Of a DNA stretch of 64,000 nt, positions 1,471 to 51,015 are shown one piece after another. A model generated the notes under the pieces. The model searched no databases and was not told the DNA's origin. It was given only the letters and a program-made list of their open reading frames with translations. The stretch is from a virus, in IMG/VR virus record IMGVR_UViG_3300047089_000307, positions 1 to 64,000 of that record. One strand, 5' to 3'. Both the position numbers and the translations under genes were made by a program. Each line of letters opens with the position of its first letter. The stretch's first letter is position 1.

Positions 1471-2226
1471 ATGACTGCACTGCACCAGGTCATCGCCATT
1501 GAGCGCGGCGTCGCGGACGACACGGACAAGCACGTCGCCGACATCAGGCGCGTGCTGGCGGTCGGCGGCGAGAACGACCCGCTGACCGGCATCTCCCGGA
1601 CGTATGAGTCCGCGCGGGAGAACGGCGATGAGCTGCCCGCGCAGGCCCGCCGGGTCCAGTTCACCGTCACGGAGCTGCTGGAGCGCGCCCAGGCGCACAT
1701 GACGCGGCTGTTCGACCTCAAGCTCACGCGCGAGTGGGGCAACTGCTCGGCCCGCGGCGACATCGTCCTGCCGGACGGTACGGTCCTGGTCCGGGACGTC
1801 CCGGCCGGTTACATGCTGTTCCTGGAGGCCCAGCTGAAGGAGCTGATCAAGCTCATCGAGCAGCTGCCGCAGCTGAACCCCGCCCTGGACTGGGACGATG
1901 AGGACCCGGCGCTGCCCGCGGGCGTGTGGAAGGCCGCGCCGAAGCGCACGGTCCGGACGATCAAGGTCCCGCAGGTCCAGGTCCTGTACGCGGCGACGGA
2001 CCACCACCCGGCGCAGGTCCGCCAGTATGACACCGACATCATCGAGGGCTACTGGACTGAGGTGAGGTTCAGCGGCCAGCTGCCCGCCCGGGAAATCCAG
2101 GCGATGCGCGCTCGCGCCACTGCGGTGCTGCACGCGGTGAAGTACGCCCGTGAGCAGGCGAACACCCTGACGGTGGACGACCGGAAGGCCGGCGAGGACA
2201 TCCTCGGGTACGTCTTCGGTGGCTGA
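1471..2226 (+). CDS. DUF7873-like phage protein
   Basis: This 251-aa protein starts MTALHQVIAIERGVADD at an ATG with AAGGA upstream. Its layout matches my memory of a family common in actinobacteria and their phages (DUF7873): a short N-terminal helical part, a region like RRVQFTVTELLERAQAHM, a central LADVP/RDVPAGYMLFLE-type motif, VLYAATDHHPAQ near residue 180, and an acidic C-terminal stretch ending in GYVFGG. Molecular function is unknown. The open frame extends upstream to 1411, but that part overlaps the hairpin leader. Confidence 0.75.
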   Translation: MTALHQVIAIERGVADDTDKHVADIRRVLAVGGENDPLTGISRTYESARENGDELPAQARRVQFTVTELLERAQAHMTRLFDLKLTREWGNCSARGDIVLPDGTVLVRDVPAGYMLFLEAQLKELIKLIEQLPQLNPALDWDDEDPALPAGVWKAAPKRTVRTIKVPQVQVLYAATDHHPAQVRQYDTDIIEGYWTEVRFSGQLPAREIQAMRARATAVLHAVKYAREQANTLTVDDRKAGEDILGYVFGG

Positions 2227-2228
2227 TA

Positions 2229-2603
2229 GTGCGGAATGACTGCCCGGACCGGGATCGCTGCTCCCGCCTGGGCGGGACCTGCCAGTGCGCTGACGAGGAA
2301 TCCCGGAAGGCCCGTGAGGCTTATGCCTGCCCGCAGTGCGGCCCGGACCCGCGCGGCATGCTCGCGCACGGTGAGGCGCACCATGCGGGGCCGCCGGGCA
2401 ACGACGGCGTGTACTACGAGCGGCTGCGCGAAGGCGCGGTCGCTCGCACGGTTTCAGTGCGCGATGATGCTGCCCTGGTTGACGTCGACAGTGACGGGTT
2501 CGTGCTCGGCGTGGAGGTGCTGGACGGCGGTGACTGGCGGGACGCGCTCGCGAACCTTGCCAGGGCCGGCCGGCTGGCGGTCCCCCGGAAGGGCGGTGCC
2601 TGA
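2229..2603 (+). CDS. zinc-finger plus DUF2283-like protein
   Basis: This 124-aa protein begins at a GTG 3 nt after the previous stop. Residues 5-40 carry Cys pairs (CPDRDRC, CQC, CPQC). Residues about 60-105 contain GAVARTVSVRDDAALVDVD and GFVLGVEVLD, the signature of DUF2283, a small beta-rich domain of unknown function. It overlaps the next gene by ATGA, so they are co-translated. Confidence 0.7.
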   Translation: MRNDCPDRDRCSRLGGTCQCADEESRKAREAYACPQCGPDPRGMLAHGEAHHAGPPGNDGVYYERLREGAVARTVSVRDDAALVDVDSDGFVLGVEVLDGGDWRDALANLARAGRLAVPRKGGA

Positions 2604-2869
2604 TGGCCGGCTCTTACCAGCACATGGTGAACCGTAACGGCCGGCTGCTCGGCAACGAGTCGTTCACGGGCATGATCGAGAACCTCGGCGACGCTTACGA
2701 GGCGGCGCAGGAGTGCTACGGGATGATCTGGTACCTGGCTGACGTGATCGCGGGGGAGACGCTCGGCCGGGAGACCGCCCGCGGCGACCGGATCGCGATC
2801 ATCGAGGAGGCCCGGCAGCACTACCGGGACGGGCTGAGGCTCGGCGGGGTAAGCGGGCAGCGGTCATGA
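2603..2869 (+). CDS. hypothetical protein (88 aa)
   Basis: An ATG overlaps the upstream TGA. The protein is mostly helical, with AYEAAQECYGMIWYLADVIA followed by a basic/acidic C-terminal helix. No domain recognised; it lies in a tightly packed run of small phage genes. Confidence 0.65.
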   Translation: MAGSYQHMVNRNGRLLGNESFTGMIENLGDAYEAAQECYGMIWYLADVIAGETLGRETARGDRIAIIEEARQHYRDGLRLGGVSGQRS

Positions 2870-3072
2870 GCATGACGGACGGCTTCATTGATCGTGAGTC
2901 AGAGGCCATCGCCCGGTGCACGCGCGCCATTGACGGCCTGATTGGCGGGGAGGCCAAGGGGCGCGTCCTGCGTTACCTGAACGACCGGTACGGCTGGGCA
3001 CTTCCCCTCGGGGAGCGCGGAGTCACCCACACCGCGGACTGCGAGCCGGAGAAGGGGGATGCCCTGGCATGA
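2866..3072 (+). CDS. hypothetical protein (68 aa)
   Basis: It overlaps the preceding gene by 4 nt (ATGA). The protein contains IGGEAKGRVLRYLNDRYG, a helical segment, and ends with an acidic tail. No domain is recognised. Confidence 0.6.
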   Translation: MSMTDGFIDRESEAIARCTRAIDGLIGGEAKGRVLRYLNDRYGWALPLGERGVTHTADCEPEKGDALA

Positions 3073-3647: not shown

Positions 3648-3720
3648 GGGCTGCTGGTGTAATGGCGTAGCACAAGAGCTTCCAAACCTCTTGGTCCGGG
3701 TTCGATCCCTGGGTGGCCTG
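3648..3720 (+). tRNA. tRNA-Trp (CCA)
   Basis: A full cloverleaf is present. The acceptor GGGCTGC pairs with GTGGCCT, the anticodon loop TTCCAAA gives CCA, the T-loop is TTCGATC, and the discriminator is G73 as usual for Trp. One C-C mismatch closes the anticodon stem. Confidence 0.8.
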
Positions 3721-3845
3721 CTGGTTCCCACGCTGCACGACCGGGCTGGACGGAACCGTAACTTGATACCTCAACAGTGATGAGCAAATGCTCAGGGATC
3801 GCGGGAGGGCCTTGTGTCCGTTCGACCGGGTCTGCCTGGGCAGAT

Positions 3846-3919
3846 GGGACCTTAGCTCAGCCAGGGAGAGCACCTGCGTGGCACGCAGGGGGTCGCGGGT
3901 TCAATTCCCGCAGGTTCCA
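3846..3919 (+). tRNA. tRNA-Ala (GGC)
   Basis: The acceptor GGGACCT/AGGTTCC carries the alanine identity pair G3-U70. The anticodon stem CCTGC/GCAGG encloses GTGGCAC (GGC). T-loop TTCAATT, A73. Confidence 0.88.
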
Positions 3920-3923
3920 CTTC

Positions 3924-3995
3924 GGGCCGGTAGCTTAACGGTAGAGCGATTGCCTTGCAAGCAATTAGGCCAGGGTTCGAATCCCTGTTGGTCCA
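3924..3995 (+). tRNA. tRNA-Ala (TGC)
   Basis: Acceptor GGGCCGG/TTGGTCC again has G3-U70. The loop CTTGCAA gives TGC. T-loop TTCGAAT, A73. Confidence 0.88.
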
Positions 3996-4072
3996 CGGCC
4001 GCGGTAGCGAGTTCGACTCTCGTCGCATCCACGCACGGGTGCGTACCTCAACGGATAGAGGACGGCACTTAT
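3996..4072 (+). other. tRNA halves in permuted order (3' half then 5' half)
   Basis: A 3' half (3997-4031: anticodon stem GGCCG, T-arm GCGAG-TTCGACT-CTCGT, acceptor CGCATCC, A73) is followed after 5 nt by a 5' half (4037-4072: acceptor GGGTGCG, a textbook D-arm TA-CCTC...GAGG, anticodon stem CGGCA and loop up to TAT). The two acceptor strands pair 7 of 7 (one G-U), and the anticodon strands pair 4 of 5. The next tRNA starts immediately at 4073. Either a permuted tRNA gene or the remains of a tandem duplication. Confidence 0.6.
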
Positions 4073-4146
4073 CTAGGTATGGCGCAGTTTGGTAGCGCGC
4101 CGGGTTCGGGACTCGGAGGCCGCAGGTTCAAATCCTGCTATCTAGA
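4073..4146 (+). tRNA. tRNA-Pro (CGG)
   Basis: Acceptor CTAGGTA/TATCTAG, D-arm TGGCGCAG...GCGC, anticodon stem CCGGG/CTCGG with loop TTCGGGA (CGG), T-loop TTCAAAT, A73. Confidence 0.88.
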
Positions 4147-4152
4147 CTTTTT

Positions 4153-4227
4153 CGGGTTGTAGCTTAGCTTGGTGAAAGCGCGCGGCTGGGGGCCGCGAGA
4201 GCGCAGGTTCGAATCCTGCCTGCCCGA
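4153..4227 (+). tRNA. tRNA-Pro (GGG)
   Basis: Acceptor CGGGTTG/CTGCCCG (one mismatch), anticodon stem CGCGG/CCGCG with loop CTGGGGG (GGG), T-loop TTCGAAT, A73. Confidence 0.85.
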
Positions 4228-4231
4228 CGAG

Positions 4232-4391
4232 GGAAGCAGGAAGGTGGGCTTAGAAGCAGCCATCCTTTAAAGAGCGCGGTCATGCTGCCTTTTGTCTGAG
4301 GGCGCCAGCGGTAAGAGCTGGCACGCTAGCGGGCGGAAGGGTAAACGGGGAATCGCCCTGGCGTAACAGCACACCTGTTTTCCTGGAGCAC
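4232..4391 (+). ncRNA. structured RNA with a 23S rRNA GTPase-centre-like hairpin
   Basis: Bases about 4240-4277 closely match the conserved core of the L11/thiostrepton-binding region of bacterial 23S rRNA (helix 43 region, E. coli about 1055-1090). The run GGCTTAGAAGCAGCCAT (4247-4263) is identical to the rRNA, and TTTAAAGA follows as in rRNA. The helix 44 loop is not conserved. The segment is probably closed by GGAAGCAGG (4232-) pairing with CCTGTTTTCC (about 4376-4385). A second, weaker resemblance to later 23S sequence is seen near 4341-4362. It sits between tRNAs, not in an rRNA operon. Confidence 0.6.
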
Positions 4392-4401
4392 CGGGAAGTT
4401 A

Positions 4402-4474
4402 CGGATACGAGGGAGACGGATAACCCGCCTGGTCTGGGGCCAGGAAAAACTCAGTTCGACCCTGAGGTATCCGA
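4402..4474 (+). tRNA. tRNA-Pro (TGG) with C33
   Basis: Acceptor CGGATAC/GTATCCG pairs perfectly; anticodon stem CCTGG/CCAGG is perfect and encloses TCTGGGG, so the anticodon is TGG but position 33 is C instead of U. T-loop TTCGACC, A73. Position 8 is G rather than U. Confidence 0.7.
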
Positions 4475-4484
4475 CTGAAGCGGT

Positions 4485-4498
4485 CCCCCGTCAGGGGG
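4485..4498. other. short GC hairpin
   Basis: CCCCC-GTCA-GGGGG followed by TTAAAAA. It may be an RNA processing or weak termination signal within the array. Confidence 0.3.
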
Positions 4499-4505
4499 TT
4501 AAAAA

Positions 4506-4548
4506 CGGGCGTGGCCGAGTGGCGCCGCTGTGAAAAGAACGCCCGCCA
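4506..4548 (+). ncRNA. mini tRNA-like hairpin ending in CCA
   Basis: CGGGCGT (4506-4512) and ACGCCCG (4539-4545) form a perfect 7-bp acceptor-like stem directly followed by CCA. The inside keeps a D-arm-like GGCCGAGTGGC but lacks anticodon and T arms. It may be a deleted tRNA or a small acceptor-like RNA. Confidence 0.35.
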
Positions 4549-4549
4549 T

Positions 4550-4621
4550 GTGCCTTTGGCGTAAGGGGAAACGCGCCTGGTTGAAGCCCAGGGGTTCGCG
4601 GTTCGATTCCGTGGGGGTGCA
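4550..4621 (+). tRNA. tRNA-Phe (GAA)
   Basis: Acceptor GTGCCTT/GGGGTGC (with wobbles), D-stem GCGT/ACGC, anticodon stem CCTGG/CCAGG with loop TTGAAGC (GAA), A73. Position 37 is G instead of the usual A. Confidence 0.8.
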
Positions 4622-4622
4622 C

Positions 4623-4693
4623 GGGGTAGTTGGTTAACGGTAAACCAAGAGCCTTCCAAGCTTTGACTGCGGGTTCGAATCCCGTCTGCCCTT
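4623..4693 (+). tRNA. tRNA-Gly (TCC)
   Basis: Acceptor GGGGTAG/CTGCCCT, D-stem GGTT/AACC, loop CTTCCAA (TCC), T-loop TTCGAAT, T73 as expected for Gly. Confidence 0.88.
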
Positions 4694-4698
4694 CGGTA

Positions 4699-4774
4699 AA
4701 CGCTCGCAGTCAGGATAGGCGCGGTTCTTCGGGATTGCGTAATGGCCTGGCCCACTGGGAGCCAAGCGAGTGTT
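4699..4774 (+). other. unassigned structured segment
   Basis: ACGCTCGC (4699-4706) can pair with GCGAGTGT (about 4767-4774), closing a 60-nt internal region. No tRNA arms can be assigned. Confidence 0.25.
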
Positions 4775-4777
4775 TAT

Positions 4778-4846
4778 GCCGCAGCGCACGGCCTGCGACT
4801 CCCCCTTCGTACGGGGGACGGCCCGGTTCGACCCCGGGTTGCGGCT
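4778..4846 (+). tRNA. tRNA-Thr (CGT)
   Basis: Acceptor GCCGCAG/TTGCGGC, anticodon stem CCCCC/GGGGG with loop TTCGTAC (CGT), T-loop TTCGACC, T73. The D-arm is short (16 nt between acceptor and anticodon stem) and position 8 is C. Confidence 0.65.
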
Positions 4847-4997
4847 CTGCTCGTAAGGTCACCACGCGACTGTCACAGGGAGCGCGGCCCTGAGGGGAAG
4901 CACGGCCGCTGCGAACCCGGGACTTGTTAAGCCATCCACATCACGGTCGTTAGCCGGCTGCCTCCGGGCGTGGCTCTTACACTGGCAAGTCCCATCT
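4847..4997 (+). other. spacer without assignable tRNA
   Basis: About 150 nt containing GC hairpins (for example GCGGCC...GGCCGC near 4885-4910) but no complete cloverleaf or ORF that I can support. Confidence 0.3.
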
Positions 4998-5068
4998 GCG
5001 CTGCAAGCATTGTGGTGATGCAGAGGACTCTTAATCCTCGGAGCGGGGTTCGATCCCCTGGTGGCGCA
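4998..5068 (+). tRNA. tRNA-Lys (CTT)
   Basis: Acceptor GCGCTGC/GTGGCGC, D-stem GCAT/ATGC, anticodon stem GAGGA/TCCTC with loop CTCTTAA (CTT), T-loop TTCGATC, A73. Confidence 0.85.
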
Positions 5069-5069
5069 C

Positions 5070-5142
5070 GCGCGGCTAGTCCAATGGCAGAGGCGCCGGA
5101 CTCAAGATCCGGGCGATCCGGGTTCGAGTCCCGGGCTGCGCA
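5070..5142 (+). tRNA. tRNA with CAA anticodon, short variable loop
   Basis: Acceptor GCGCGGC/GCTGCGC, anticodon stem CCGGA/TCCGG with loop CTCAAGA (CAA, leucine codon UUG), T-loop TTCGAGT, A73. The variable loop is only GCGAT, whereas leucine tRNAs normally have a long arm, so charging with leucine is not assured. Confidence 0.75.
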
Positions 5143-5146
5143 CCGT

Positions 5147-5217
5147 TTCCCTCTCGTTCAATGGCAGGACGCCTGACTCTGAATCAGGCAATTGAGGTTC
5201 GAGTCCTCGGAGGGAAG
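5147..5217 (+). tRNA. tRNA-Gln (CTG)
   Basis: Acceptor TTCCCTC/GAGGGAA with the U1-A72 pair and G73 expected of Gln; stem CCTGA/TCAGG with loop CTCTGAA (CTG). Confidence 0.9.
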
Positions 5218-5222
5218 CTCAT

Positions 5223-5296
5223 GTCCGGGTAGGCAACTGGCAGACCACTCGCCTTGAGGTGGCGTGATGCTGTGGGTTCGAATCCCATCCTGGATA
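5223..5296 (+). tRNA. tRNA-Leu (GAG), shortened variable arm
   Basis: Acceptor GTCCGGG/CCTGGAT, loop TTGAGGT (GAG), T-loop TTCGAAT, A73 with an encoded CCA at 5297-5299. The variable region is much shorter than in cellular leucine tRNAs. Confidence 0.75.
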
Positions 5297-5300
5297 CCAA

Positions 5301-5371
5301 TGCCCTCTCGTTTAACGGCAGGACGCCGGGCTTTGGCCCCGGTAGTCGAGGTTCGAATCCCCGGGGGGCAG
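5301..5371 (+). tRNA. tRNA-Gln (TTG)
   Basis: Acceptor TGCCCTC/GGGGGCA with U1-A72 and G73; anticodon stem CCGGG/CCCGG with loop CTTTGGC (TTG). Confidence 0.88.
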
Positions 5372-5375
5372 CAGT

Positions 5376-5449
5376 GCCGCTTTAGCTCAGATGGCTAGAG
5401 CAGCCGCCTTGTAAGCGGCAGGTCGCCGGTTCGAGGCCGGCAAGCGGCT
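5376..5449 (+). tRNA. tRNA-Thr (TGT)
   Basis: Acceptor GCCGCTT/AAGCGGC, anticodon stem GCCGC/GCGGC with loop CTTGTAA (TGT), T73. All stems are complete. Confidence 0.92.
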
Positions 5450-5453
5450 CCGC

Positions 5454-5526
5454 GCCTGACTAGCTCTAGCGGTAGAGCGTCGCCATGGTAAGGCGAAGGT
5501 CATCGGTTCGAATCCGATGTCAGGCT
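5454..5526 (+). tRNA. tRNA-Thr (GGT)
   Basis: Acceptor GCCTGAC/GTCAGGC, anticodon stem TCGCC/GGCGA with loop ATGGTAA (GGT), T-loop TTCGAAT, T73. Confidence 0.92.
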
Positions 5527-5530
5527 CTTT

Positions 5531-5602
5531 GCAGACGTGGCGCAACGGTAGCGTATTACCTTGCCAAGGTAATGGTTGCGGGTTCGAGTCCCGTCGTCTG
5601 CT
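5531..5602 (+). tRNA. tRNA-Gly (GCC)
   Basis: Acceptor GCAGACG/CGTCTGC, anticodon stem TTACC/GGTAA with loop TTGCCAA (GCC), T73, followed by an encoded CCA (5603-5605). Confidence 0.92.
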
Positions 5603-5606
5603 CCAC

Positions 5607-5691
5607 GCGCGGGTGGTTGGAATTGGCAGACACGCACGGCTCAGACCCGTGTGGCCGCAAGGTCGTGAGGGTTCGAGTCCCTCTTCGCGCA
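5607..5691 (+). tRNA. tRNA-Leu (CAG)
   Basis: Acceptor GCGCGGG/TTCGCGC, anticodon stem CACGG/CCGTG with loop CTCAGAC (CAG), a normal long variable arm, T-loop TTCGAGT, A73. Confidence 0.9.
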
Positions 5692-5747
5692 CTAGGTGAC
5701 CCGGTAAACGTGGCGCTGCCGCGGCAACCGCAATCCGGGCACTCCCT

Positions 5748-5833
5748 GGAAGGCTCGCATAGCTGGCTTATTGCGCTGCCCTGCTAAGGCAGTTCGGATA
5801 ATACCGACGCGGGTTCGAATCCCGCGCCTTCCT
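5748..5833 (+). tRNA. tRNA-Ser (GCT)
   Basis: Acceptor GGAAGGC/GCCTTCC, anticodon stem CTGCC/GGCAG with loop CTGCTAA (GCT), long variable arm, T-loop TTCGAAT. The discriminator is T rather than the usual G. Confidence 0.85.
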
Positions 5834-5891
5834 CTGGATTCGCGTGAGGTACCGAAATGGCGCAAGCCTGTGAAGCGTGAGTCCTTCAAAT

Positions 5892-5975
5892 GGAAGATGA
5901 ACCTGGCAGGAGTCAGGGACCGGCCGGAAACCGGTTCGGCGCGCGAGCGCTGGGATTCGAGTTCTCCGTCTTCCG
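5892..5975 (+). tRNA. tRNA-Ser (GGA) with C33
   Basis: Acceptor GGAAGAT/GTCTTCC and G73; anticodon stem ACCGG/CCGGT is perfect and encloses CCGGAAA, so the anticodon GGA is preceded by C33 instead of U33. Long variable arm present. The upstream 58 nt (5834-5891) hold a weaker tRNA-like fold with a GTG-containing loop that I could not complete. Confidence 0.7.
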
Positions 5976-6113
5976 CGGAGGTAGGCCGGGAAACCCTGAC
6001 AGCGGGGAGGTTGCCTGCCTGCTGCCTTGAACTCCTGGGGAGCGCGACGTACGGCTAACCCCGAATCCCGCCAGGGCACAGGACAAGGGCAACATTTCCT
6101 GTGCCCGATCCCC
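5976..6113 (+). other. spacer with a perfect 10-bp hairpin
   Basis: GGGCACAGGA (6074-6083) pairs perfectly with TCCTGTGCCC (6097-6106) around a 13-nt loop, with no U tract. It may be an RNase processing site. The preceding 98 nt contain GCGGG/CCCGC but no clear T-loop, so no tRNA is called. Confidence 0.4.
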
Positions 6114-6195
6114 GGAAGGTACGCAGCCGGCGCTGCAACTCGCCTCGAAAGCGAGGGCGGGGTAACACCTGGGGGCTCGACACCTCTACCTTCCT
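6114..6195 (+). tRNA. tRNA-Ser (CGA)
   Basis: Acceptor GGAAGGT/ACCTTCC, anticodon stem CTCGC/GCGAG with loop CTCGAAA (CGA), long variable arm. The T-loop is CTCGACA (C54 instead of U54) and the discriminator is T. Confidence 0.72.
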
Positions 6196-6200
6196 CTTAC

Positions 6201-6273
6201 GGGCTCCTCGTCTAATCGGTGAGGACGCGTGTCTGATAAGCACGTAATCGGGGTTCAATTCCCTGGGGGCCTA
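6201..6273 (+). tRNA. tRNA-Ile (GAT)
   Basis: Acceptor GGGCTCC/GGGGCCT, anticodon stem CGTGT/GCACG with loop CTGATAA (GAT), T-loop TTCAATT, A73. Confidence 0.88.
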
Positions 6274-6274
6274 C

Positions 6275-6346
6275 TGGAGCGTCGTTCAATGGTAAGGACG
6301 CGCCTCTTATACGGACGTGACTCGGGTTCGATTCCCGGCGCTCCTA
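6275..6346 (+). tRNA. tRNA-Ile (TAT)
   Basis: Acceptor TGGAGCG/CGCTCCT (first pair unpaired), D-stem GTTC/GGAC, anticodon loop CTTATAC (TAT, codon AUA), T-loop TTCGATT, A73. One mismatch lies in the anticodon stem. Confidence 0.7.
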
Positions 6347-6347
6347 C

Positions 6348-6420
6348 TGGGATATAGCTTAGACGGAAGAGCGGCGGATTCATAACCCGTCAGGCCCGGG
6401 TTCGATCCCCGGTATCCCGA
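6348..6420 (+). tRNA. tRNA with CAT anticodon (elongator Met or Ile2)
   Basis: Acceptor TGGGATA/TATCCCG, D-stem GCTT/GAGC, anticodon loop TTCATAA (CAT), T-loop TTCGATC, A73. It lacks the three G-C pairs of initiators, so it is an elongator methionine tRNA or a lysidine-modified isoleucine tRNA. Confidence 0.8.
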
Positions 6421-6424
6421 CTAT

Positions 6425-6495
6425 GCCTCTTTAGCATAAGGCAGTGCAGCGGGCCTTTACCCCGCGTTGTCAGGGTTCAAGTCCCTGGGGAGGTA
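6425..6495 (+). tRNA. tRNA-Lys (TTT) with C33
   Basis: Acceptor GCCTCTT/GGGAGGT, D-stem GCAT/GTGC, perfect anticodon stem GCGGG/CCCGC with loop CCTTTAC: anticodon TTT, position 33 is C. T-loop TTCAAGT, A73. Confidence 0.72.
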
Positions 6496-6496
6496 C

Positions 6497-6570
6497 TGCG
6501 CGCAGGTGTACCGGATGGTCACGCCGGCCTTCTAAGCCGAGAGGACGGGGTTCGACTCCCCGGCGCGCGA
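6497..6570 (+). tRNA. tRNA-Arg (TCT)
   Basis: Acceptor TGCGCGC/GCGCGCG, anticodon stem CGGC/GCCG with loop CTTCTAA (TCT), T-loop TTCGACT, A73. Position 8 is A. Confidence 0.8.
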
Positions 6571-6575
6571 CTCAT

Positions 6576-6648
6576 GCTCGTGTGGACAAGCGGTGAAGTC
6601 ACCTGCCTCTCAAGCAGGAGATCCCGGGTTCAAATCCCGGTACGAGCA
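6576..6648 (+). tRNA. tRNA-Glu (CTC)
   Basis: Acceptor GCTCGTG/TACGAGC, anticodon stem CCTGC/GCAGG with loop CTCTCAA (CTC), T-loop TTCAAAT, A73. Confidence 0.9.
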
Positions 6649-6653
6649 CGTTT

Positions 6654-6744
6654 CCAGGGAAGCGCACAGTCCGGACTGTGCTAGCGGTTCTGGCCGATCA
6701 GGAACGTATGCCGGGCGGTTCGATTCCGTCGCCGCGTTCCCTGG
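6654..6744 (+). ncRNA. tRNA-like structured RNA
   Basis: CCAGGGAA (from 6654) pairs with TTCCCTGG (6737-6744), longer than a normal acceptor. A T-arm (GGCGG-TTCGATT-CCGTC, 6714-6730) is present. The D/anticodon region is replaced by the perfect 18-bp palindrome GCACAGTCCGGACTGTGC (about 6664-6681). No anticodon can be assigned. Confidence 0.4.
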
Positions 6745-6752
6745 ATTCATGA

Positions 6753-6823
6753 CGTCCTGTCGATCATGGGTAGGTCCCGGTCCTTTCAAGGCCGAGAACA
6801 GGGTTCGAGTCCCTGTAGGACGA
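6753..6823 (+). tRNA. tRNA-Glu (TTC)
   Basis: Acceptor CGTCCTG/TAGGACG, anticodon stem CGGTC/GGCCG with loop CTTTCAA (TTC), T-loop TTCGAGT, A73. Confidence 0.85.
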
Positions 6824-6824
6824 C

Positions 6825-6899
6825 CGCGGAGTAGGGGAGCTCGGTGTCCCCGCTGGGCTCATAACCCAGAGATCGCGGGTTCAAATCCCGCCTCCGCTA
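6825..6899 (+). tRNA. initiator tRNA-fMet (CAT)
   Basis: The anticodon stem CTGGG/CCCAG has the three consecutive G-C pairs of initiators with loop CTCATAA. Position 1 (C) does not pair with position 72 (T), the other initiator hallmark. T-loop TTCAAAT, A73 and an encoded CCA (6900-6902). Confidence 0.92.
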
Positions 6900-6903
6900 C
6901 CAA

Positions 6904-6974
6904 TCTCCTATCGTTTAATGGGAGGACGAGCGGCCGTTAACCGCTTAATTCTGGTTCGAGTCCAGGTGGGAGAG
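6904..6974 (+). tRNA. tRNA-Asn (GTT) with C33
   Basis: Acceptor TCTCCTA/TGGGAGA and G73 as expected for Asn. The perfect anticodon stem AGCGG/CCGCT encloses CCGTTAA: anticodon GTT with C at position 33. Confidence 0.75.
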
Positions 6975-6975
6975 C

Positions 6976-7045
6976 GGAAGCAGGAAGGGAGTACGCCTTC
7001 GCCAGGGAAGGTCTGGCACGAGAGAAGAGCCGTCCTGCTTCACCA
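6976..7045 (+). ncRNA. tRNA-like RNA closed by a 9-bp stem and ending in ACCA
   Basis: GAAGCAGGA (6977-6985) pairs perfectly with TCCTGCTTC (7033-7041), followed by ACCA. An internal hairpin GCCAG/CTGGC has a 7-nt loop GGAAGGT. There is no T-loop. The 5' sequence GGAAGCAGGAAGG is the same as the start of the 23S-like RNA at 4232. Confidence 0.4.
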
Positions 7046-7047
7046 AT

Positions 7048-7122
7048 GGGGCTATAACTCAGCCTGGTTAGAGTGCCACCTTGTCACGGTGGAAGCCGCC
7101 GGTTCAAATCCGGTTAGTCCCG
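7048..7122 (+). tRNA. tRNA-Asp (GTC)
   Basis: Acceptor GGGGCTA/TAGTCCC, anticodon stem CCACC/GGTGG with loop TTGTCAC (GTC), T-loop TTCAAAT, G73 as expected. Confidence 0.92.
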
Positions 7123-7123
7123 C

Positions 7124-7195
7124 GCAGCCATGGTGAAATGGATATCATGACAGGCTACGAACCTGTCGGTCTGGGTTCGACTCCCGGTGGCTGTA
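7124..7195 (+). tRNA. tRNA-Arg (ACG)
   Basis: Acceptor GCAGCCA/TGGCTGT, anticodon stem ACAGG/CCTGT with loop CTACGAA (ACG), A73 and encoded CCA (7196-7198). Confidence 0.92.
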
Positions 7196-7244
7196 CCAGC
7201 GCTAACTCCGGATGGCGCTATAGAAAACGTTCCGGGGCGAGCAA

Positions 7245-7316
7245 GCCCACTTAGCTCAGAGGCAGAGCGGCTGTCCTACAAACAGCGGGCCGGGATTTCG
7301 AAATTCTCAGTGGGTA
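7245..7316 (+). tRNA. tRNA-Val (TAC) with C33
   Basis: Acceptor GCCCACT/AGTGGGT, D-stem GCTC/GAGC, perfect anticodon stem GCTGT/ACAGC with loop CCTACAA: anticodon TAC, C33. The T-stem is weak (one mismatch), A73. Confidence 0.72.
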
Positions 7317-7336
7317 CTGCGCCGGAAGGCGCTCAT

Positions 7337-7420
7337 GGCGGCGGAAGCAGGATGGCATTATGCGTCAGGTTGTGACCCTGTGTCCGCAAGGATTCGCGGG
7401 TTCAAATCCCGTTCGTCGCC
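7337..7420 (+). tRNA. tRNA-His (GTG) with long variable arm
   Basis: An extra G at -1 pairs with C73, the histidine identity mark, extending GCGGCGG/TCGTCGC. The anticodon loop is TTGTGAC (GTG). The variable region includes TCC-GCAA-GGA, a class II-like arm not expected for histidine. T-loop TTCAAAT. Confidence 0.8.
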
Positions 7421-7540
7421 CGTAAGCCGGGGTTGAGGGCATCCTCGTGACGGCAAGCCGGACTCAGGCAGGCTCCCGGCCCCGCAAATCGCGTTCAGCC
7501 GTGACCTGCCGGGTTCAATGGCCGCGGAAACCCTCTTTAC
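7421..7540 (+). other. spacer without assignable tRNA
   Basis: About 120 GC-rich nt with short hairpins (GGGTT/AACCC near 7510-7532). No complete tRNA or ORF is supported. Confidence 0.3.
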
Positions 7541-7622
7541 TGACGAGTATGCAAGTGGTTCAAAGCATCCGGCCTGTAAATCCGGCGCCTCGGCTTCGTG
7601 GGTTCGAATCCCTCCTCGTCAA
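7541..7622 (+). tRNA. tRNA-Tyr (GTA)
   Basis: Acceptor TGACGAG/CTCGTCA pairs perfectly, anticodon loop CTGTAAA (GTA), long variable arm, T-loop TTCGAAT, A73. Confidence 0.85.
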
Positions 7623-7624
7623 CC

Positions 7625-7711
7625 GTGCCCCTACCCTGGATTGGTCTCCGGCGCTTGACGGCGTGCACGCTGCCGACGCTAGTGAGTATCCGTTCGAATC
7701 GGACAGGGGCT
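7625..7711 (+). other. degenerate class II tRNA-like segment
   Basis: TGCCCC near 7626 can pair with GGGGC at 7706-7710 and a T-arm TCCG-TTCGAAT-CGGA is present. The anticodon arm is ambiguous (a TTGA-containing loop might be serine TGA). Confidence 0.35.
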
Positions 7712-7719
7712 CGATACTT

Positions 7720-7788
7720 ATCCTTGGCAGCGGACCTGCTGCCCTCCCTCCGAAGGAGAGTTACCCGGTTCGACTCCGGGCAGGGATA
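7720..7788 (+). tRNA. tRNA-Arg (CCG)
   Basis: Acceptor ATCCTTG/CAGGGAT, anticodon stem with loop CTCCGAA (CCG), T-stem CCCGG/CCGGG with TTCGACT, A73. The D-arm is short. Confidence 0.65.
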
Positions 7789-7836
7789 CGAGGGGCCTCC
7801 CCGGGGCGCTGATGACAAAGAAGTACCGGGGATCAT

Positions 7837-7909
7837 GTCGCGTTACTCTCCGGTGAGGGGGCCTGGCTGCAACCCAGGCTGACGTCCGGTTCGACCCCGG
7901 AACGCGACT
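7837..7909 (+). tRNA. tRNA-Cys (GCA)
   Basis: Acceptor GTCGCGT/ACGCGAC, anticodon stem CCTGG/CCAGG with loop CTGCAAC (GCA), T73 as expected for Cys. Confidence 0.9.
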
Positions 7910-7916
7910 CTGCGCC

Positions 7917-7982
7917 CCCGCCGGCGGATTCGGTCCAGGGTTTCCTAAACCCGGGTGCCTGGTTCGACTCCAGGCGGCGGCA
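7917..7982 (+). tRNA. tRNA-Arg (CCT), short D-arm
   Basis: Acceptor CCCGCCG/CGGCGGC with an unpaired first position, anticodon loop TTCCTAA (CCT), T-stem CCTGG/CCAGG, A73 and an encoded CCA (7983-7985). Only 66 nt because the D-arm is reduced. Confidence 0.65.
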
Positions 7983-8004
7983 CCAGTTTGCTCATCACTG
8001 CTGA

Positions 8005-18290: not shown

Positions 18291-18364
18291 GGATTAGACT
18301 GGCCCTCAATGCTGCGGCCTGCGGGAGCCAGCCGGGAACTGATTCCTGGAGCCAGCCATCGCCG
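18291..18364 (+). repeat. 74-bp leader repeat, copy A (before terL)
   Basis: This segment matches 50942-51015 at 68 of 74 positions. It contains a -10-like TAGACT (18295-18300), an ATG (18309) opening a short frame MLRPAGASRELIPGASH, a hairpin CCGGGAA-CTGA-TTCCTGG, and GGAG 6 nt before an ATC where the downstream protein frame begins in the +1 frame. Confidence 0.85.
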
Positions 18365-20103
18365 CCCAGCTGTTCGCCCGGCCGCTCGTCTACCTTCCGG
18401 ACGGGTCGGTCTACGAGGGTGAGCTGACGGGCAGCCAGCTGCCCCGGCTGTGGACGTCGCCCGAGCGGCACCGGGTCAAGGACCCCGACTGCCGTACGTG
18501 CAGCCAGCGCGGGTACCCCAGGCTCGGCTGCGGGGACTACGCCTCGGCTGAGCTGCTCCAGTGGGCGCCGTCGTGCGGCTATGACCTGGACCTGTGGCAG
18601 CGCTGGTGGCTGACCGAGGCGTGCGGCGTCAAGCCTGACGGCCGCTGGGCAGCCTTCGAGGTCTGCAACATATGCAGCCGCCAGAACGGGAAGAACCAGC
18701 TCCTGGAAGTGCGGGAGCTGGGCGGCCTGTTCCTGTTCGGCGAGCAGATGATCATCCACACGGCGCACGAGTTCAAGGCCGCCGCCGAGCACTTCCGCCG
18801 CGTCCGCGACACCATTACCTCCTATGATGAGCTGAGCAGGCGCGTCAAGCGGGTCATGACCAGCCACGGCGACGAGGCCATCGAGCTGCGGCCGACGCCG
18901 ACCCTCATCTTCGGCCCGGGGGGCGCGCGCGTCCGGAAGTCCGTCACTGCCCGGCTGCGCTTCCTGGCCCGCTCCCGCGGCTCCGGGCGAAGCTTCACGG
19001 CAGACTGCGTAGTGTACGACGAGGCCATGTTCCTGAGCGACGAGCAGGTTGGCGCGTCCATGCCCACCATGCGCGCCGTGCCCAATCCGCAGATGTACTA
19101 CACGGCCTCGGCGGGCATGAAGGACAGCGTCCAGCTCGCCACGGTCCGGCGGCGCGTCATGCGGGGCGACCCCACCGTGATGGGGGCGGAATGGTCGATT
19201 GACCCCCACCTGGACACGTGCCCGCGCGACGAGGTCCACGGCCGCAAGTCCAATCATTACGTCACCTGCGGCAGGCACGATGACCGGGACGACCCGAGGT
19301 CCTGGGCCAAGGCCAACCCGGCGTTCGGCCGGCGCATCTTCTACGATCACGTCCGGCGTGAGTTCGCGGCCATGTCCCCCGCCGCGTTTGACCGGGAGCT
19401 GCTCGGCGTTGGTGACTGGCCCGCGGAAGAGGAAGCCTGGGCGGTCGTCACCGAGGCCGCCTGGGAGGGCTGCGCGATGGATAACCCCGGCGGGGCCACC
19501 CGGCCCGTGGCGTTCGCGGTCGACGTCAACCCGGAGATGACGGTGGCCACCATCGCGGCGGCCTGGGAGCGCCCGGGGCCGCCGGAGCTGGTGGCCGTGC
19601 CGAAGGTCTATGCCACGGACGGCTCCGAGCGCAGGGGGCAGCCGCCGCCCGCCCGGCAGGCCCGGGTCGTGCTGGAGATCCCCCGCGGCTGCTCGCGGGA
19701 GGGCACCAGCTGGGTAGTGCAGCGGCTGGCCGAGCTGAGGAGGCAGTGGCGCCCGGTGGCCGTCTGCATCCCGCGCAACGGCCCGGCCGCCGCGCTGGCC
19801 GACGCCGCCGCGCACGCGGGCATTGACGTCCTGGTCGCCACCTCCGGGGACGAGGCCGCCGCATTCGCGCTGATGGTCACCGGGATCAGGGACAAGAAGG
19901 TCATCCACATGGGACGGCAGAACGCCCCTGCGCTGTGGAGCGCCATCGCCAGCGCGGAAACCCGCGACATCGGCGACGGCGGCCGGGGCTGGTCCCGGCG
20001 CAACAGCGAGGAGGACATCACGCCGGTTACCGCGGCGACCCTCGCCTACTGGGCGCTGAACAAGAAGCGGCGCAGCTACGACATCCGCAGGAGCATCGCA
20101 TGA
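18346..20103 (+). CDS. terL: terminase large subunit
   Basis: The open frame runs from 18343 (after TGA) and gives about 585 aa. Walker A is SRQNGKN (about residues 111-117) and Walker B VVYDEA (about 221-226). The C-terminal RNase H-like nuclease has PVAFAVDVNPEM, DVLVATSGDEA and a late acidic cluster (ETRDIGDGG). It powers DNA packaging and cuts concatemers. There is no ATG, GTG or TTG near the start: CTG (18346) or ATC (18358, with GGAG upstream) must serve, or a +1 shift from the short ORF at 18309. Confidence 0.9.
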   Translation: MEPAIAAQLFARPLVYLPDGSVYEGELTGSQLPRLWTSPERHRVKDPDCRTCSQRGYPRLGCGDYASAELLQWAPSCGYDLDLWQRWWLTEACGVKPDGRWAAFEVCNICSRQNGKNQLLEVRELGGLFLFGEQMIIHTAHEFKAAAEHFRRVRDTITSYDELSRRVKRVMTSHGDEAIELRPTPTLIFGPGGARVRKSVTARLRFLARSRGSGRSFTADCVVYDEAMFLSDEQVGASMPTMRAVPNPQMYYTASAGMKDSVQLATVRRRVMRGDPTVMGAEWSIDPHLDTCPRDEVHGRKSNHYVTCGRHDDRDDPRSWAKANPAFGRRIFYDHVRREFAAMSPAAFDRELLGVGDWPAEEEAWAVVTEAAWEGCAMDNPGGATRPVAFAVDVNPEMTVATIAAAWERPGPPELVAVPKVYATDGSERRGQPPPARQARVVLEIPRGCSREGTSWVVQRLAELRRQWRPVAVCIPRNGPAAALADAAAHAGIDVLVATSGDEAAAFALMVTGIRDKKVIHMGRQNAPALWSAIASAETRDIGDGGRGWSRRNSEEDITPVTAATLAYWALNKKRRSYDIRRSIA

Positions 20104-20867: not shown

Positions 20868-21022
20868 CTTTCAGTATTTAATAGTCGGTTACCGTATTAC
20901 GGTAGCGGCCCTTTTCCGCTGGTGTGTGCTAAATTCCCAGCGGTGGCGTACGCTTGCCGTTAACATACCCGCGGCCATTCTCCGGAGCCGGGACTTCTTG
21001 ACCGGAGGGACCCGGGAACCCT
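20868..21022. other. intergenic region before portal
   Basis: About 155 bp, relatively AT-rich at the start, with a hairpin ACCGT-ATT-ACGGT region (about 20891-20903). No ORF is supported. Confidence 0.35.
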
Positions 21023-22672
21023 GTGGGGCTGCTTGAGCGCATCCAGGCCGATCGCGCTGAGAAGCGCGCGATAACTGGTGTTCCCTGGCGCCCCTGGGAT
21101 AACCCCTTCATCAAGTTCAACCTGGGCGGCCCGGTTCACCCCTCCCGTGCCGCTTACGGCCAGGACCAGGCGCTCGGCCTCCCCGCGCTGTACTCGTGCA
21201 CCCGGCTGCTGGCCGAGTCGCTGGCCAGCCTCCCGCTGAAGCTTTACACGAGTCCTCCCGGGTCGGACGTCACCACGCGCTACACGGGGCCGTCACTCTT
21301 CGACCAGCCGAGCGCGGACACGGACGTCACGCTGTACGACTGGCTGTACCAGATGATGACCGCGCTGCTGCTGCACGGCAACGCGTGGGGCCTTATCTCC
21401 GGGCGCGACGGCTACGGGTACCCCACTGGCATTGAGTGGATTCCCCCCGAGCGGGTGTACGTGCAGGAGGACAGCCAGCAGCCGTGGAACCCGATGCGCA
21501 CCCGCGTGTACGTGGACGGACGGCTGTTCCCTGACTGGCGCAGCGATCTCTTCCACGTCCGGGGCTACGCGCTGGCCGGGCGCACGGAGGGCCTGTCCCC
21601 GCTGCGCGCGTTCGCGCTGACCGTGCTGTCCGGCATTGAGTCCCAGAAGTACGGCGCGGACTGGTACCTGAACGGCGGCTTCCCCTCCGGCGTCTTCCAG
21701 AACCAGGAGCTGGAGGTCAGCCTGGAGGACGCGCGGGAGATCCGCGAGTCGCTGATGGAGGCCATCCACGGGCACAAGCCGCTGGTCGTCGGGCGTGACT
21801 GGGACTACAAGCCCGTGTCGGTACCGCCGTCAGAAGCGCAGTTCCTCGAAGCGACCCAGATGAACGCCACCCAGGTCGCCGCGGTCTACGGGCTGCCCCC
21901 GGACCGGGTGGGCGGCCGGCGCGGCGACTCCCTGACCTACAACACAGTAGAGCAATCTACATTGCAAGTGATTGAGGCGCTGCGGCCGTGGATCGTCCGG
22001 CTGGAGACTGCCTTCTTCCGGCTGCTGCCGCAGAGCCGCTTCTGCCGGTTCAATTCCGACGCGCTGCTGAAGACCGACCTGAAGACGCGCACCGAGATCT
22101 ACGCGCAGCAGCGCGCGATCGGCATGCTCACCGTGGACGAGATCCGCGACATGGAAGACCGCATGCCGTACCCGAACGCCACGGGCGACGAGAAGATCCC
22201 CCAGGACGTCATGGTCGCCATGTCCCGGTCGATCCGCGGCATCCCGAATTCCATGCTGCCGAGCATCACCCTGGAAGTTGACCTGATCGCCGACCGGCTG
22301 ACCAAGCTCCAGGGCGAGGGGCTGACCAAGCCGGAGACCGAGCCGTCCATCCCTAACCCGGAGGACTTCCTGTCCGGCCAGGTCGGCTCCGTCCGCTCGG
22401 CCGCGGGCGCGCCGCCGCTTCCCCACGCGATGCTGGCGCACTTGCAGGCACTGCTGGCCGAGCACGTCGGCCGCGAGGCCGCGGCGCAGATCCTCGATAA
22501 GTCCCTGGCCACCGCGGGAGCCGATCGCAAGCAGCCGGAGTTCATCGGGCCGTGGATTCCGTCCGAGGCTGACCTGGCGAAGGCAGAGGCCGTCCTGAGG
22601 CTCGCCGCGTTCCCCGTCCCGGAGCTTGCCTCCGCGAACGGCGGCAACGGCAACGGGAACGGGAGGCACTGA
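21023..22672 (+). CDS. HK97-family portal protein
   Basis: This 549-aa protein starts at a GTG. Family features are clear: LPALYSCTRLLAESLASLPL near residue 55, the YDWLYQMMTALLLHGNAW segment, a WIPPERVYV strand, GLSPLRAFALTVLSG, and the long C-terminal helix region (GDSLTYNTVEQSTL, RTEIYAQQRAIGMLTVDEIR). It forms the ring at the capsid vertex through which DNA passes. The C-terminal Gly/Asn tail is low complexity. Confidence 0.95.
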   Translation: MGLLERIQADRAEKRAITGVPWRPWDNPFIKFNLGGPVHPSRAAYGQDQALGLPALYSCTRLLAESLASLPLKLYTSPPGSDVTTRYTGPSLFDQPSADTDVTLYDWLYQMMTALLLHGNAWGLISGRDGYGYPTGIEWIPPERVYVQEDSQQPWNPMRTRVYVDGRLFPDWRSDLFHVRGYALAGRTEGLSPLRAFALTVLSGIESQKYGADWYLNGGFPSGVFQNQELEVSLEDAREIRESLMEAIHGHKPLVVGRDWDYKPVSVPPSEAQFLEATQMNATQVAAVYGLPPDRVGGRRGDSLTYNTVEQSTLQVIEALRPWIVRLETAFFRLLPQSRFCRFNSDALLKTDLKTRTEIYAQQRAIGMLTVDEIRDMEDRMPYPNATGDEKIPQDVMVAMSRSIRGIPNSMLPSITLEVDLIADRLTKLQGEGLTKPETEPSIPNPEDFLSGQVGSVRSAAGAPPLPHAMLAHLQALLAEHVGREAAAQILDKSLATAGADRKQPEFIGPWIPSEADLAKAEAVLRLAAFPVPELASANGGNGNGNGRH

Positions 22673-36430: not shown

Positions 36431-37481
36431 TGGTGGGTCAGGCTGCATGTACTACCGGATCAAGGTCCCCCTGGAGGAGCTGGCCCGGCACGGTCATGAG
36501 GTGACCTTCCGCTCCGGCGGGAATGAGGAGGGTAACCGGCCCATCACCCTGGCGGAGATGGCCGAGCATGACGTGGTGATCGGGCAGCGGTTCAATCACT
36601 ACGCGGGCATGGGCACCTGGCGCCGCGCCCGCGGGCCGTCCAGCCGGCTGGTCTACGAGATTGATGACGACGTCTTCTCCGTGACCCCGGTCAACTGGCA
36701 GGCGTACCACGTCTACAGCCAGCCGGAGGTCCGCGAGGCTGTCATGCACCAGGCCCAGGTATCGGACCTGGTGACCGTGACCACGGAGCACCTGGCCGCG
36801 GTGATGCGCGAGCACACCGGCAACGGCAACGTCCTGGCGCTGCCGAACTGCGTCCCCGGCTGGGTGCTGGACATGGAGCGCAGGCCCCGGCAGCGCCCGG
36901 CGATCGGCTGGGCGGGCGGCGCCAGCCACGGCAGCGACGTCGGGCTGCTCGTCAGCCCCGTGCGCCGGTTCCTGAAGCGGTTCCCCGGCTGGGACTTCCA
37001 GCTTGGCGGCACGGACTTCCGGGAGACCTTCGCCCGGGAGGGGTCGCCGCGCGGGAGGCTGCTGCACGCCCGGTGGGTGCCGGTCTGCGAGGACGCGCGG
37101 GGCTATTACGAGACCGCGGACTTCGACATCGGCCTGGCCCCGCTGGCGGGAACCCCGTTTGACCTGTCGAAGTCCTGCGTCAAGGTACTGGAGTACGCGG
37201 CCCGGGGCATTCCCTCGATCGCCAGTGACTGCGAGGTTTACCGGTCGTTCATCCGCCATGGCGAGAACGGCTTCCTGGTGAAGAGGGACCATGAGTGGCT
37301 GAAGTACGCATCCGAGCTGGCCAGCGACGGGGGCCTGCGGCTGGCGATGGGCCAGGCAGCGCGGGACACGGCGCGGGAGTGGACGATCGAGGCGAATTAC
37401 CACCTATGGGAGCAGGCGTACCGGAGCCTGTTTAAGGTCAAGTCTCTTAGCGTATTATGGCCTTCGTGCGCGAGCCAGTAG
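36408..37481 (+). CDS. glycosyltransferase (GT4/GT-B type)
   Basis: This 357-aa GTG-started protein has a GT-B layout: an N-terminal domain with MYYRIKVPLEELARHGHEVT and LVYEIDDDVFSV, a linker, then AIGWAGGASHGSDVG, DFDIGLAPLAGTPFDLSKSC and CVKVLEYAARGIPSIASDCE (the nucleotide-sugar binding E-x7-E-like region), ending in GENGFLV. It overlaps the nuclease gene by 25 nt. Confidence 0.85.
   Translation: MRIFAGHDGGSGCMYYRIKVPLEELARHGHEVTFRSGGNEEGNRPITLAEMAEHDVVIGQRFNHYAGMGTWRRARGPSSRLVYEIDDDVFSVTPVNWQAYHVYSQPEVREAVMHQAQVSDLVTVTTEHLAAVMREHTGNGNVLALPNCVPGWVLDMERRPRQRPAIGWAGGASHGSDVGLLVSPVRRFLKRFPGWDFQLGGTDFRETFAREGSPRGRLLHARWVPVCEDARGYYETADFDIGLAPLAGTPFDLSKSCVKVLEYAARGIPSIASDCEVYRSFIRHGENGFLVKRDHEWLKYASELASDGGLRLAMGQAARDTAREWTIEANYHLWEQAYRSLFKVKSLSVLWPSCASQ
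37442..37458 (+). promoter_or_regulatory. phage promoter element at the nuclease start
   Basis: GTCTCTTAGCGTATTAT matches the recurring element. Its -10-like TATTAT (37453-37458) overlaps the annotated ATG and lies 7 nt before a GTG (37466) in the same frame, so transcripts from here would begin translation at the GTG. Confidence 0.6.
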
Positions 37482-39241: not shown

Positions 39242-40039
39242 GTGAGGCGACACGCTCTTGCCGTGCAGCTGGTCAATCTGGCCCTGGTGGCAACACTGCC
39301 GGAGCCGGGTGAGTGAGGCGACTGGGCACCGGGCGAGGCGTTCTGCCCGGCGTTGCCGGTGGCAACACTGCCGGAGCCGGGTGAGTGAGGCGACTGGGCA
39401 CCGGGCGAGGCGTTCTGCCCGGCGTTGCCGGTGGCAACACTGCCGGAGCCGGGTGAGTGAGGCGACAGGTGGTGGGACGGGCTGCCCGGGTTGGTCAGCA
39501 TGGTGGCAACACTGCCGGAGCCGGGTGAGTGAGGCGACCAGCCCGCGCCGTCGCTCCGGAGAACCTTGTATTCGGTGGCAACACTGCCGGAGCCGGGTGA
39601 GTGAGGCGACAAGCAGCAGACGCCGCCGGTGAGCGTGTCCTCGGGCCGTGGCAACACTGCCGGAGCCGGGTGAGTGAGGCGACTCGGTGCGCCTGCGGCT
39701 ACGGGTGGCCGGCTTGATCGGTGGCAACACTGCCGGAGCCGGGTGAGTGAGGCGACGGCTTCCAGGCGTCGGCGAGCCGGACCACCTCGCGCGTGGCAAC
39801 ACTGCCGGAGCCGGGTGAGTGAGGCGACCGCGACTGCTGCAATGCGCTAGACAAGGCAGGTGGCAACACTGCCGGAGCCGGGTGAGTGAGGCGACAGTGC
39901 AGCGCTGATGTCAGCCTGCGCCCGCGACTTGGTGGCAACACTGCCGGAGCCGGGTGAGTGAGGCGACATCAGGACCGGCCTTACCGGTCGACGCCTCCCG
40001 GCGGTGGCAACACTGCCGGAGCCGGGTGAGTGAGGCGAC
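39216..40039. CRISPR. CRISPR array, 12 identical 36-bp repeats, 11 spacers
   Basis: Repeats start at 39216, 39287, 39359, 39431, 39503, 39575, 39648, 39721, 39793, 39860, 39932 and 40004; each begins GTGGCAACACTGCC and ends GTGAGTGAGGCGAC, with no differences. Spacers are 35, 36, 36, 36, 36, 37, 37, 36, 31, 36 and 36 bp; spacers 2 and 3 are identical. On the minus strand the repeat begins GTCGCC and ends with a hairpin GGCA-GTGT-TGCC plus AC, as in type V repeats, which suggests transcription from right to left. No cas1, cas2 or other cas gene is in the window. Confidence 0.97.
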
Positions 40040-40080
40040 TGCTGCGGTATCCTGGCCACCGCAGCCGGGAGGAGCACGTG

Positions 40081-41404: not shown

Positions 41405-41582
41405 GGCCCGGGTCCTCCCGCTGGACTGGGAGCTGCGGGCTGCGGCGGGCTCGTGCGGAAAGCGGGGCTGTGACCTGCCCAGGACCAGCGGTAGCAGGCT
41501 AGACTAGCCCCAGCCGAGGTCTGAGGCTGCCCTGAAGCAGAGCCGGAAGCCGGGATGATCATCCTGGCTGGAGGCTCTCCGG
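41405..41582 (+). other. leader region with palindromic hairpin
   Basis: A TAGACT (about 41502-41507) is followed by a large hairpin: GAGCCGGA (41539-41546), the near-perfect palindrome AGCCGGGATGATCATCCTGGCT-type core (about 41547-41568) and GGAGGCTC. It partly resembles the hairpin in the 74-bp leader repeats. An ATG at 41555 opens an overlapping frame. GGAGG 7 nt before GTG 41583 serves the next gene. Confidence 0.45.
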
Positions 41583-47406: not shown

Positions 47407-47598
47407 ATGAGTGCCATCTGCAAGAAGACATCCTCGGGCGTGGACGGCCGGAGTTTTCATGTTGACCACGATCACGTCACAGGCGCAGTGCGCGGGCTGC
47501 TATGTCAGACTTGCAATGTCGGACTTGGAGCACTGCATGATGACGTGAACTTGCTGCGCGCTGCTCTCGCTTACCTGGAAGGGAGCGTGATGTCATGA
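47407..47598 (+). pseudogene. truncated endonuclease VII-type fragment (63 aa)
   Basis: [20 protein letters not shown] and [20 protein letters not shown] are the C-terminal endonuclease VII motifs, starting at an AIC remnant; the DNA-binding half is missing. It sits directly between the fibre gene and the connector gene, so a homing endonuclease insertion has decayed here. It could still be expressed. Confidence 0.65.
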
Positions 47599-50941: not shown

Positions 50942-51015
50942 GGATTAGACTGACCCCTGATGCTGCGGCCTCCGGGAGCCAGCCGGGAACTGATCCCTGG
51001 AGCCAGCCATCGCCG
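50942..51015 (+). repeat. 74-bp leader repeat, copy B
   Basis: Matches 18291-18364 at 68 of 74 positions, including TAGACT, an ATG (50960) opening MLRPPGASRELIPGASH, the hairpin and GGAG 6 nt before ATC. The downstream virion gene is again in the +1 frame relative to that ATG. Confidence 0.85.

Follow-up and report, generated by a model that had tools for sequence, protein, structure and literature searches.

Each of two near-identical 74-bp stretches in the genome of this large soil phage is probably a promoter together with the 5' leader of a late gene, belonging to a family of such elements in a clade of related phages, and the two genes that follow, which encode the terminase large subunit (TerL) and the tail terminator, would begin at an AUC codon. 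This reading is drawn from comparative sequence analysis of the window (the whole stretch of DNA analyzed, 64,000 nucleotides), of the full record of 158,651 bp, and of related phages. The TerL proteins of cultured relatives share at most 35.6% identity among the matches listed, and no cultured relative of the tail terminator appears among the matches listed. The host is probably an actinobacterium, as inferred from the best TerL matches, the G+C content and the -10.

The two 74-bp copies and their parts

Direct comparison of positions 18291 to 18364 with 50942 to 51015 gives 68 identities in 74 without gaps, in agreement with the coordinates and identity given in the original prediction, and the whole record holds no third 74-bp copy. 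The likeness between the copies fades within a few bases past either end, and the shared stretch runs from just 5' of the TAGACT sequence to one or two codons past the ATC. Four of the six mismatches are located between TAGACT and the leader ATG. The features of the copies and of the genes behind them are as follows.

18291 to 18364, plus strand: copy 1, the putative promoter-leader cassette of terL; 68/74 to copy 2; PWM rank 5 of 260 genes
18295 to 18300, plus strand: TAGACT, probable -10 of the TANNNT type, aligned with TACGCT/TANNNT of relatives
18309: leader ATG of copy 1
18312 to 18319, plus strand: box A, CTGCGGCC, identical to the CYGCGGCC box of relatives
18323 to 18332, plus strand: box B, GGGAGCCAGC; consensus CGGAGCCRGG
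18332 to 18349, plus strand: short hairpin CCGGGAA-CTGA-TTCCTGG, not above shuffled sequence (z 0.2)
18340 to 18342, plus strand: TGA stop in the TerL frame
18348 to 18351, plus strand: GGAG Shine-Dalgarno, 6 nt before ATC, with its GG in the 3' strand of the hairpin
18358 to 20103, plus strand: terL, proposed start ATC 18358; PHROG 9, E value 2.7e-64; ATG/GTG at the same codon in the closest relatives
50942 to 51015, plus strand: copy 2, the putative cassette of the tail terminator; 68/74 to copy 1; PWM rank 4 of 260
50946 to 50951, 50960, 50963 to 50970, 50974 to 50983 and 50999 to 51002: -10, leader ATG, box A, box B and GGAG of copy 2, respectively
51009 to 51434, plus strand: tail-terminator gene, proposed start ATC 51009; PHROG 17840, E value 2.8e-20; seven aligned relatives start there

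The TAGACT, the ATG opening the frame MLRPxGASRELIPGASH, the GGAG 6 nt before the ATC, and the virion protein in the +1 frame, all previously described, were found in both copies. The hairpin described along with them folds as stated in each, but its stability does not exceed that of shuffled sequence (z = 0.2 and 0.1 for copies 1 and 2, respectively).

Initiation of terL and the tail-terminator gene

Both copies carry an in-frame TGA 18 nt before the ATC, and a full-length protein could thus be started only at a CTG (18346 and 50997) or at the ATC (18358 and 51009). The first in-frame ATG, GTG or TTG is a GTG in each gene, at 18709 in terL and at 51138 in the tail-terminator gene. Starting at the former would lose the P-loop, as the invariant RQNGKN lies upstream of that codon, while starting at the latter would drop 43 of about 141 residues, i.e., a third of the protein. 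The claim that both genes lack a usual start codon was therefore correct, with no ATG, GTG or TTG near the homologous N-termini. The closest TerL relatives (80-81% identity) have an ATG (L006) or a GTG (L021) exactly at the ATC position, and more distant ones start there or some codons to either side. All seven aligned relatives of the tail terminator start, with GTG or ATG, at the ATC residue. Every other contig recovered for this species, drawn from five metagenomes, carries an identical ATC, which rules out a sequencing slip. Since no ordinary start lies nearby and relatives have ATG or GTG at the ATC position, AUC initiation behind GGAG with a 6-nt spacing is the best reading for both genes, with CUG second. 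The two marks of non-AUG initiation, the absence of an ordinary start and relatives that begin at the same codon, are thus present.

Bacteria seldom start at AUC. In this phage, the 128 genes with a clear call begin with ATG in 77 cases, GTG in 46 and TTG in five. A crude coding scan flagged further genes in which the coding signal extends upstream of the first ordinary start, many of which look artefactual; among those examined closely, only terL and the tail-terminator gene have an ATC behind GGAG in a shared leader, while one of the others has a frameshift site and one is apparently doubly frameshifted. A search for an initiator tRNA able to read AUC yielded a tRNA-Ile(GAT) without initiator features, and the initiator-like tRNA of the phage has the anticodon CAT; this candidate was rejected. 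No phage-encoded IF3 was found when looked for. The window contains 33 tRNA genes (3648-7985), in which the initiator-like tRNA-Met at 6825-6902 has a 1:72 mismatch and a GGG/CCC anticodon stem.

Initiation at the CUG four codons before the ATC would give a product beginning MEPAIA..., with the ATC as a plain isoleucine codon. The CTG is in frame in both copies, one codon past the in-frame TGA, and CUG is known as a rare bacterial start. It lacks a properly spaced Shine-Dalgarno, however, having only CGGGAA, and the GGAG would then lie inside the gene. Relatives, moreover, begin at the ATC position rather than 12 bases upstream, and we regard a CUG start as improbable.

A second route to the same proteins would have ribosomes begin at the leader ATG and shift +1 within the leader, producing a MLRP..-TerL fusion. 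Both copies keep the leader frame open, its ATG lies 8 nt past TAGACT, so that the message could be near-leaderless, and +1 frameshifting is probably used elsewhere in this phage (47613-47618). In relatives, however, the leader frame is missing: some have no ATG there, others only a short frame closed by a stop (L180, L318), and their starts are in frame. The leader likewise has no stop codon, re-pairing site or other classical +1 slip site where one would be needed, and one of the two differences between the copies within the leader frame changes a residue. A frame so poorly conserved leaves +1 frameshifting unsupported for these two genes, and we consider it very improbable here. Where the original prediction had left AUC or CUG initiation and +1 frameshifting as alternatives, the non-AUG start is thus upheld by the ATG and GTG of relatives at the ATC position, and frameshifting is not. 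The leader peptide as a conserved unit was ruled out by its absence from relatives, and the view that the conserved stretch is a signal rather than a peptide is borne out, with the signal located in the leader.

The head-tail adaptor gene (window 47595-48534) reads ATG ACC GCC ACG GTC TTC TTT TGA C at its start, and a +1 shift at UUU UGA (47613-47618) restores the adaptor frame, matching MTATVFYDN of relatives. The sequence TTCTTTTGAC of this site recurs in the relative L084/L085 (62% protein identity) and in three further contigs of the phage, making it a strong candidate for programmed +1 frameshifting. Another gene (window 51858-52934), glycosyltransferase-like by eye, apparently needs two frame changes at T runs (GATTTTC and CTATTTTTATT), which are the same in other contigs, and seems to be a pseudogene or recoded. 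In L021, whose TerL shares 81% identity with that of the window, an intein-like insertion (about 1800-3001) directly follows RQNGKN.

A family of elements before late genes

The two stretches are best understood against their counterparts in related phages, where a multi-copy family of putative late promoter-leaders, apparently undescribed, is present across a clade of large GC-rich soil phages. In its layout, a TACGCT-like -10 is followed after 10-20 nt by box A (CYGCGGCC), after another 3-11 nt by box B (CGGAGCCRGG), and after about 24-40 nt more by the start codon, with a hairpin between box B and the start codon that usually holds the Shine-Dalgarno. Genes downstream of the element in the clade include those for TerL, portal, major tail protein, endolysin and epimerase, among others. 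The terL leaders of 19 relatives share the TACGCT-like -10, the CYGCGGCC box and, ending a few bases upstream of the start, the hairpin GGAGCCGGGA..TCCCGGCTCC. In the alignment of this hairpin 88% of cells pair and two pairs vary on both sides, a modest covariation that, given its controls, may also reflect shared ancestry. A covariance model of the terL hairpin recovered more copies before portal genes, epimerases and other genes, and with a sequence profile (R2) the element was located in 10 out of 12 records from related phages. Held-out matches of R2 include the terL leader of G008 (E value 5e-16), the portal leader of G004 (E value 1e-10), G003:96977 (E value 7.6e-8) and G001:110890 (E value 2.8e-7); some strand-reversed matches represent the hairpin from the other side, and those with E values above about 1e-3 are mostly noise. 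The search in other phages, proposed earlier as a check, thus returned the element as a family.

No common -35 was found among the leaders compared. Among 2.9 million viral contigs, 34 stretches fit the pattern of the -10 with both boxes, mostly from this clade with a few chance matches, and a slightly stricter pattern is absent from 84,980 cellular species. Perfect inverted repeats (GGAGCC..GGCTCC) were considered as the defining feature and rejected, being confined mostly to terL. The elements have no match in Rfam 15 at the gathering score, and no description of them was found in the part of the literature covered. Near the major-tail gene of L294, Rfam matches below threshold on the two strands at positions 2065-2189 point to a long inverted repeat; the particular families named there are probably chance matches.

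Both copies are likely members of this family, judging by their sequence and chiefly because the terL leaders of relatives clearly belong to it. Each copy has an exact box A, a box B with one or two changes, and the family spacing. Both directly precede a late gene, and the terL copy occupies the same place as the terL leaders of relatives. With a PWM trained on relatives alone, and 260 genes ranked, copy 1 scored 20.2 (rank 5) and copy 2 scored 20.4 (rank 4), against null values of 13.4 (99%) and 22.3 (99.9%); gene 66505, which outranks them, looks like a chance match. Neither copy was reported by the R2 profile at E values up to 10, and a loose regular expression for the element gave eight matches in this genome against 4.4 in shuffled sequence, near background. 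The assignment of the -10 is the weakest part, as the PWM preferred TACGGG as the -10 of copy 2.

A copy or conversion event in this lineage, followed by selection, best accounts for the near-identity of the two stretches. Without selection, they would be a mere recent recombination duplication at module boundaries and the ATC a tolerated, damaged start. The copies do lie at gene boundaries and share 92% identity, whereas the remaining elements of the genome differ considerably. Their edges, on the other hand, coincide with the -10 and the start codon, their boxes fit the clade consensus, and the ATC is unchanged in all contigs seen, so that a functionless duplication seems unlikely.

The element is not peculiar to terL and the tail terminator. 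A textbook copy, missed in the original prediction, precedes the portal gene within the window, and a probable divergent one precedes gene 41583.

20949 to 21022, plus strand: canonical element before the portal gene; TACGCT, CCCGCGGCC at 20968-20976 and CCGGAGCCGGG at 20982-20992
21023 to 22672, plus strand: portal gene, GTG start; PHROG 12, E value 7.9e-68
41500 to 41582, plus strand: probable divergent element before gene 41583 (GTG start); TAGACT, hairpin z -2.1, weak PWM score of 12.1

The portal-leader copy was reported directly before the gene by the hairpin model R1, which was trained on relatives only (E value 0.48), and by R2 with an E value of 6e-11, although it was among the R2 training rows. 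The partly similar hairpin noted earlier before 41583 was confirmed: the element there shares TAGACT with the two copies and has a strong hairpin, and canonical boxes precede the counterpart of this gene in the relative L062. In this phage, the element is found with terL, portal, the tail terminator, the major tail protein (68363, minus strand) and endolysin (127005), with 41583 probable; the genes that carry it have late functions.

Box B and the repeats of an array in the window have CCGGAGCCGGG in common, possibly by chance. This array comprises 12 repeats of about 35 nt with spacers of about 36 nt, two of them identical, and adjoins a gene for a 594-aa Cas12-like protein whose best PADLOC match is Cas12u4, followed by Cas12f; gene and array together occupy 37457-39241 and 39216-40052.

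The region from box B to the start was folded in 32 leaders, all but one of which are not terL leaders of relatives. The mean z against shuffled sequence is -1.3, compared with 0.02 at 128 gene starts elsewhere in this phage (p 1e-7), a p-value that is indicative only, as the leaders come from several genomes and the control from one, the sequences are not quite equal in length, and some of the leaders belong to related genes. Across leaders, most of the Shine-Dalgarno is paired (mean 0.64). Copies 1 and 2 have no such excess folding, unlike the family as a whole. Relatives with strong hairpins retain AUG or UUG, whereas these two copies combine a weak hairpin with a weak start codon.

Proposed function and known systems

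In the proposed mechanism, transcription by a host-type RNA polymerase would begin a few bases past TAGACT and yield a leader RNA with box A, box B, the hairpin region and then the GGAG. The ribosome would begin TerL and the tail terminator at the AUC six bases past GGAG, probably with fMet. The purpose may be coordinated late expression, with translation intentionally held down for two proteins of which the phage needs little; the weak AUC in place of AUG or GUG would keep both low. Taken as a family, the elements are most likely late promoters under common regulation, each followed by a structured ribosome-binding site.

The stretch might instead be chiefly a transcription signal in the DNA or nascent RNA, e.g., one for put/nut/qut-type antitermination by a phage late regulator, with the start codon incidental. 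Boxes A and B are the best-conserved parts, fall within the first approximately 50 transcribed bases and precede late genes. No regulator was identified, however, box spacing varies widely, and the tendency of the hairpins to hold the Shine-Dalgarno points to translation. We consider this a real possibility, though not the favored one, and it is compatible with the promoter-leader reading. The variable spacing of the boxes in a presumably transcribed region and the folded Shine-Dalgarno favor action of boxes A and B as RNA. A bolder proposal is that the boxes and hairpin represent a novel type of RNA control in phages, one that a phage factor recognizes as a joint switch for late genes and that in this phage directs AUC initiation with help from the initiator tRNA at 6825-6902, which we put forward only tentatively as a rather doubtful extension.

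The nearest described system is SAS/ESAS of the cluster K mycobacteriophages, a repeated phage-specific motif with a Shine-Dalgarno just before start codons (PMC3203893). The SAS is a 13-bp sequence, GGGATAGGAGCCC, located 3-7 bp before the start in the non-structural half of the genome, and its authors judged a hairpin to be poorly supported (PMC3203893). Both systems have the Shine-Dalgarno within a repeated pre-start motif, in many cases accompanied by inverted repeats and a spacer of variable length. The present element differs in having its own -10 and boxes A and B, virion genes downstream, and family-wide folding support, and the leaders do not contain GGGATAGGAGCCC, their sequences being different. 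Like the HK022 put RNA and lambda nut/qut (PMC9378689, PMC6606751), it consists of short conserved parts, some folded, at the start of phage transcripts; unlike them, it includes the Shine-Dalgarno, and there is no sequence relation. The AUU/AUA starts of infC, pcnB, cvfC1 and ccpN lower expression by way of the non-canonical codon (PMC13009471). They share with the proposed phage starts a non-canonical codon behind a Shine-Dalgarno, while the phage would use AUC and has two virion genes, a duplicated leader and a short Shine-Dalgarno (GGAG).

Standard gene callers would truncate both genes and lose the P-loop of TerL, and the pair provides two clean candidates for AUC initiation in essential virion genes. 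The motif of the element offers a handle for finding late genes in a large group of uncultured soil phages, and the case could serve to test whether phages adjust the amounts of low-copy virion proteins through the structure of the leader and the choice of start codon.
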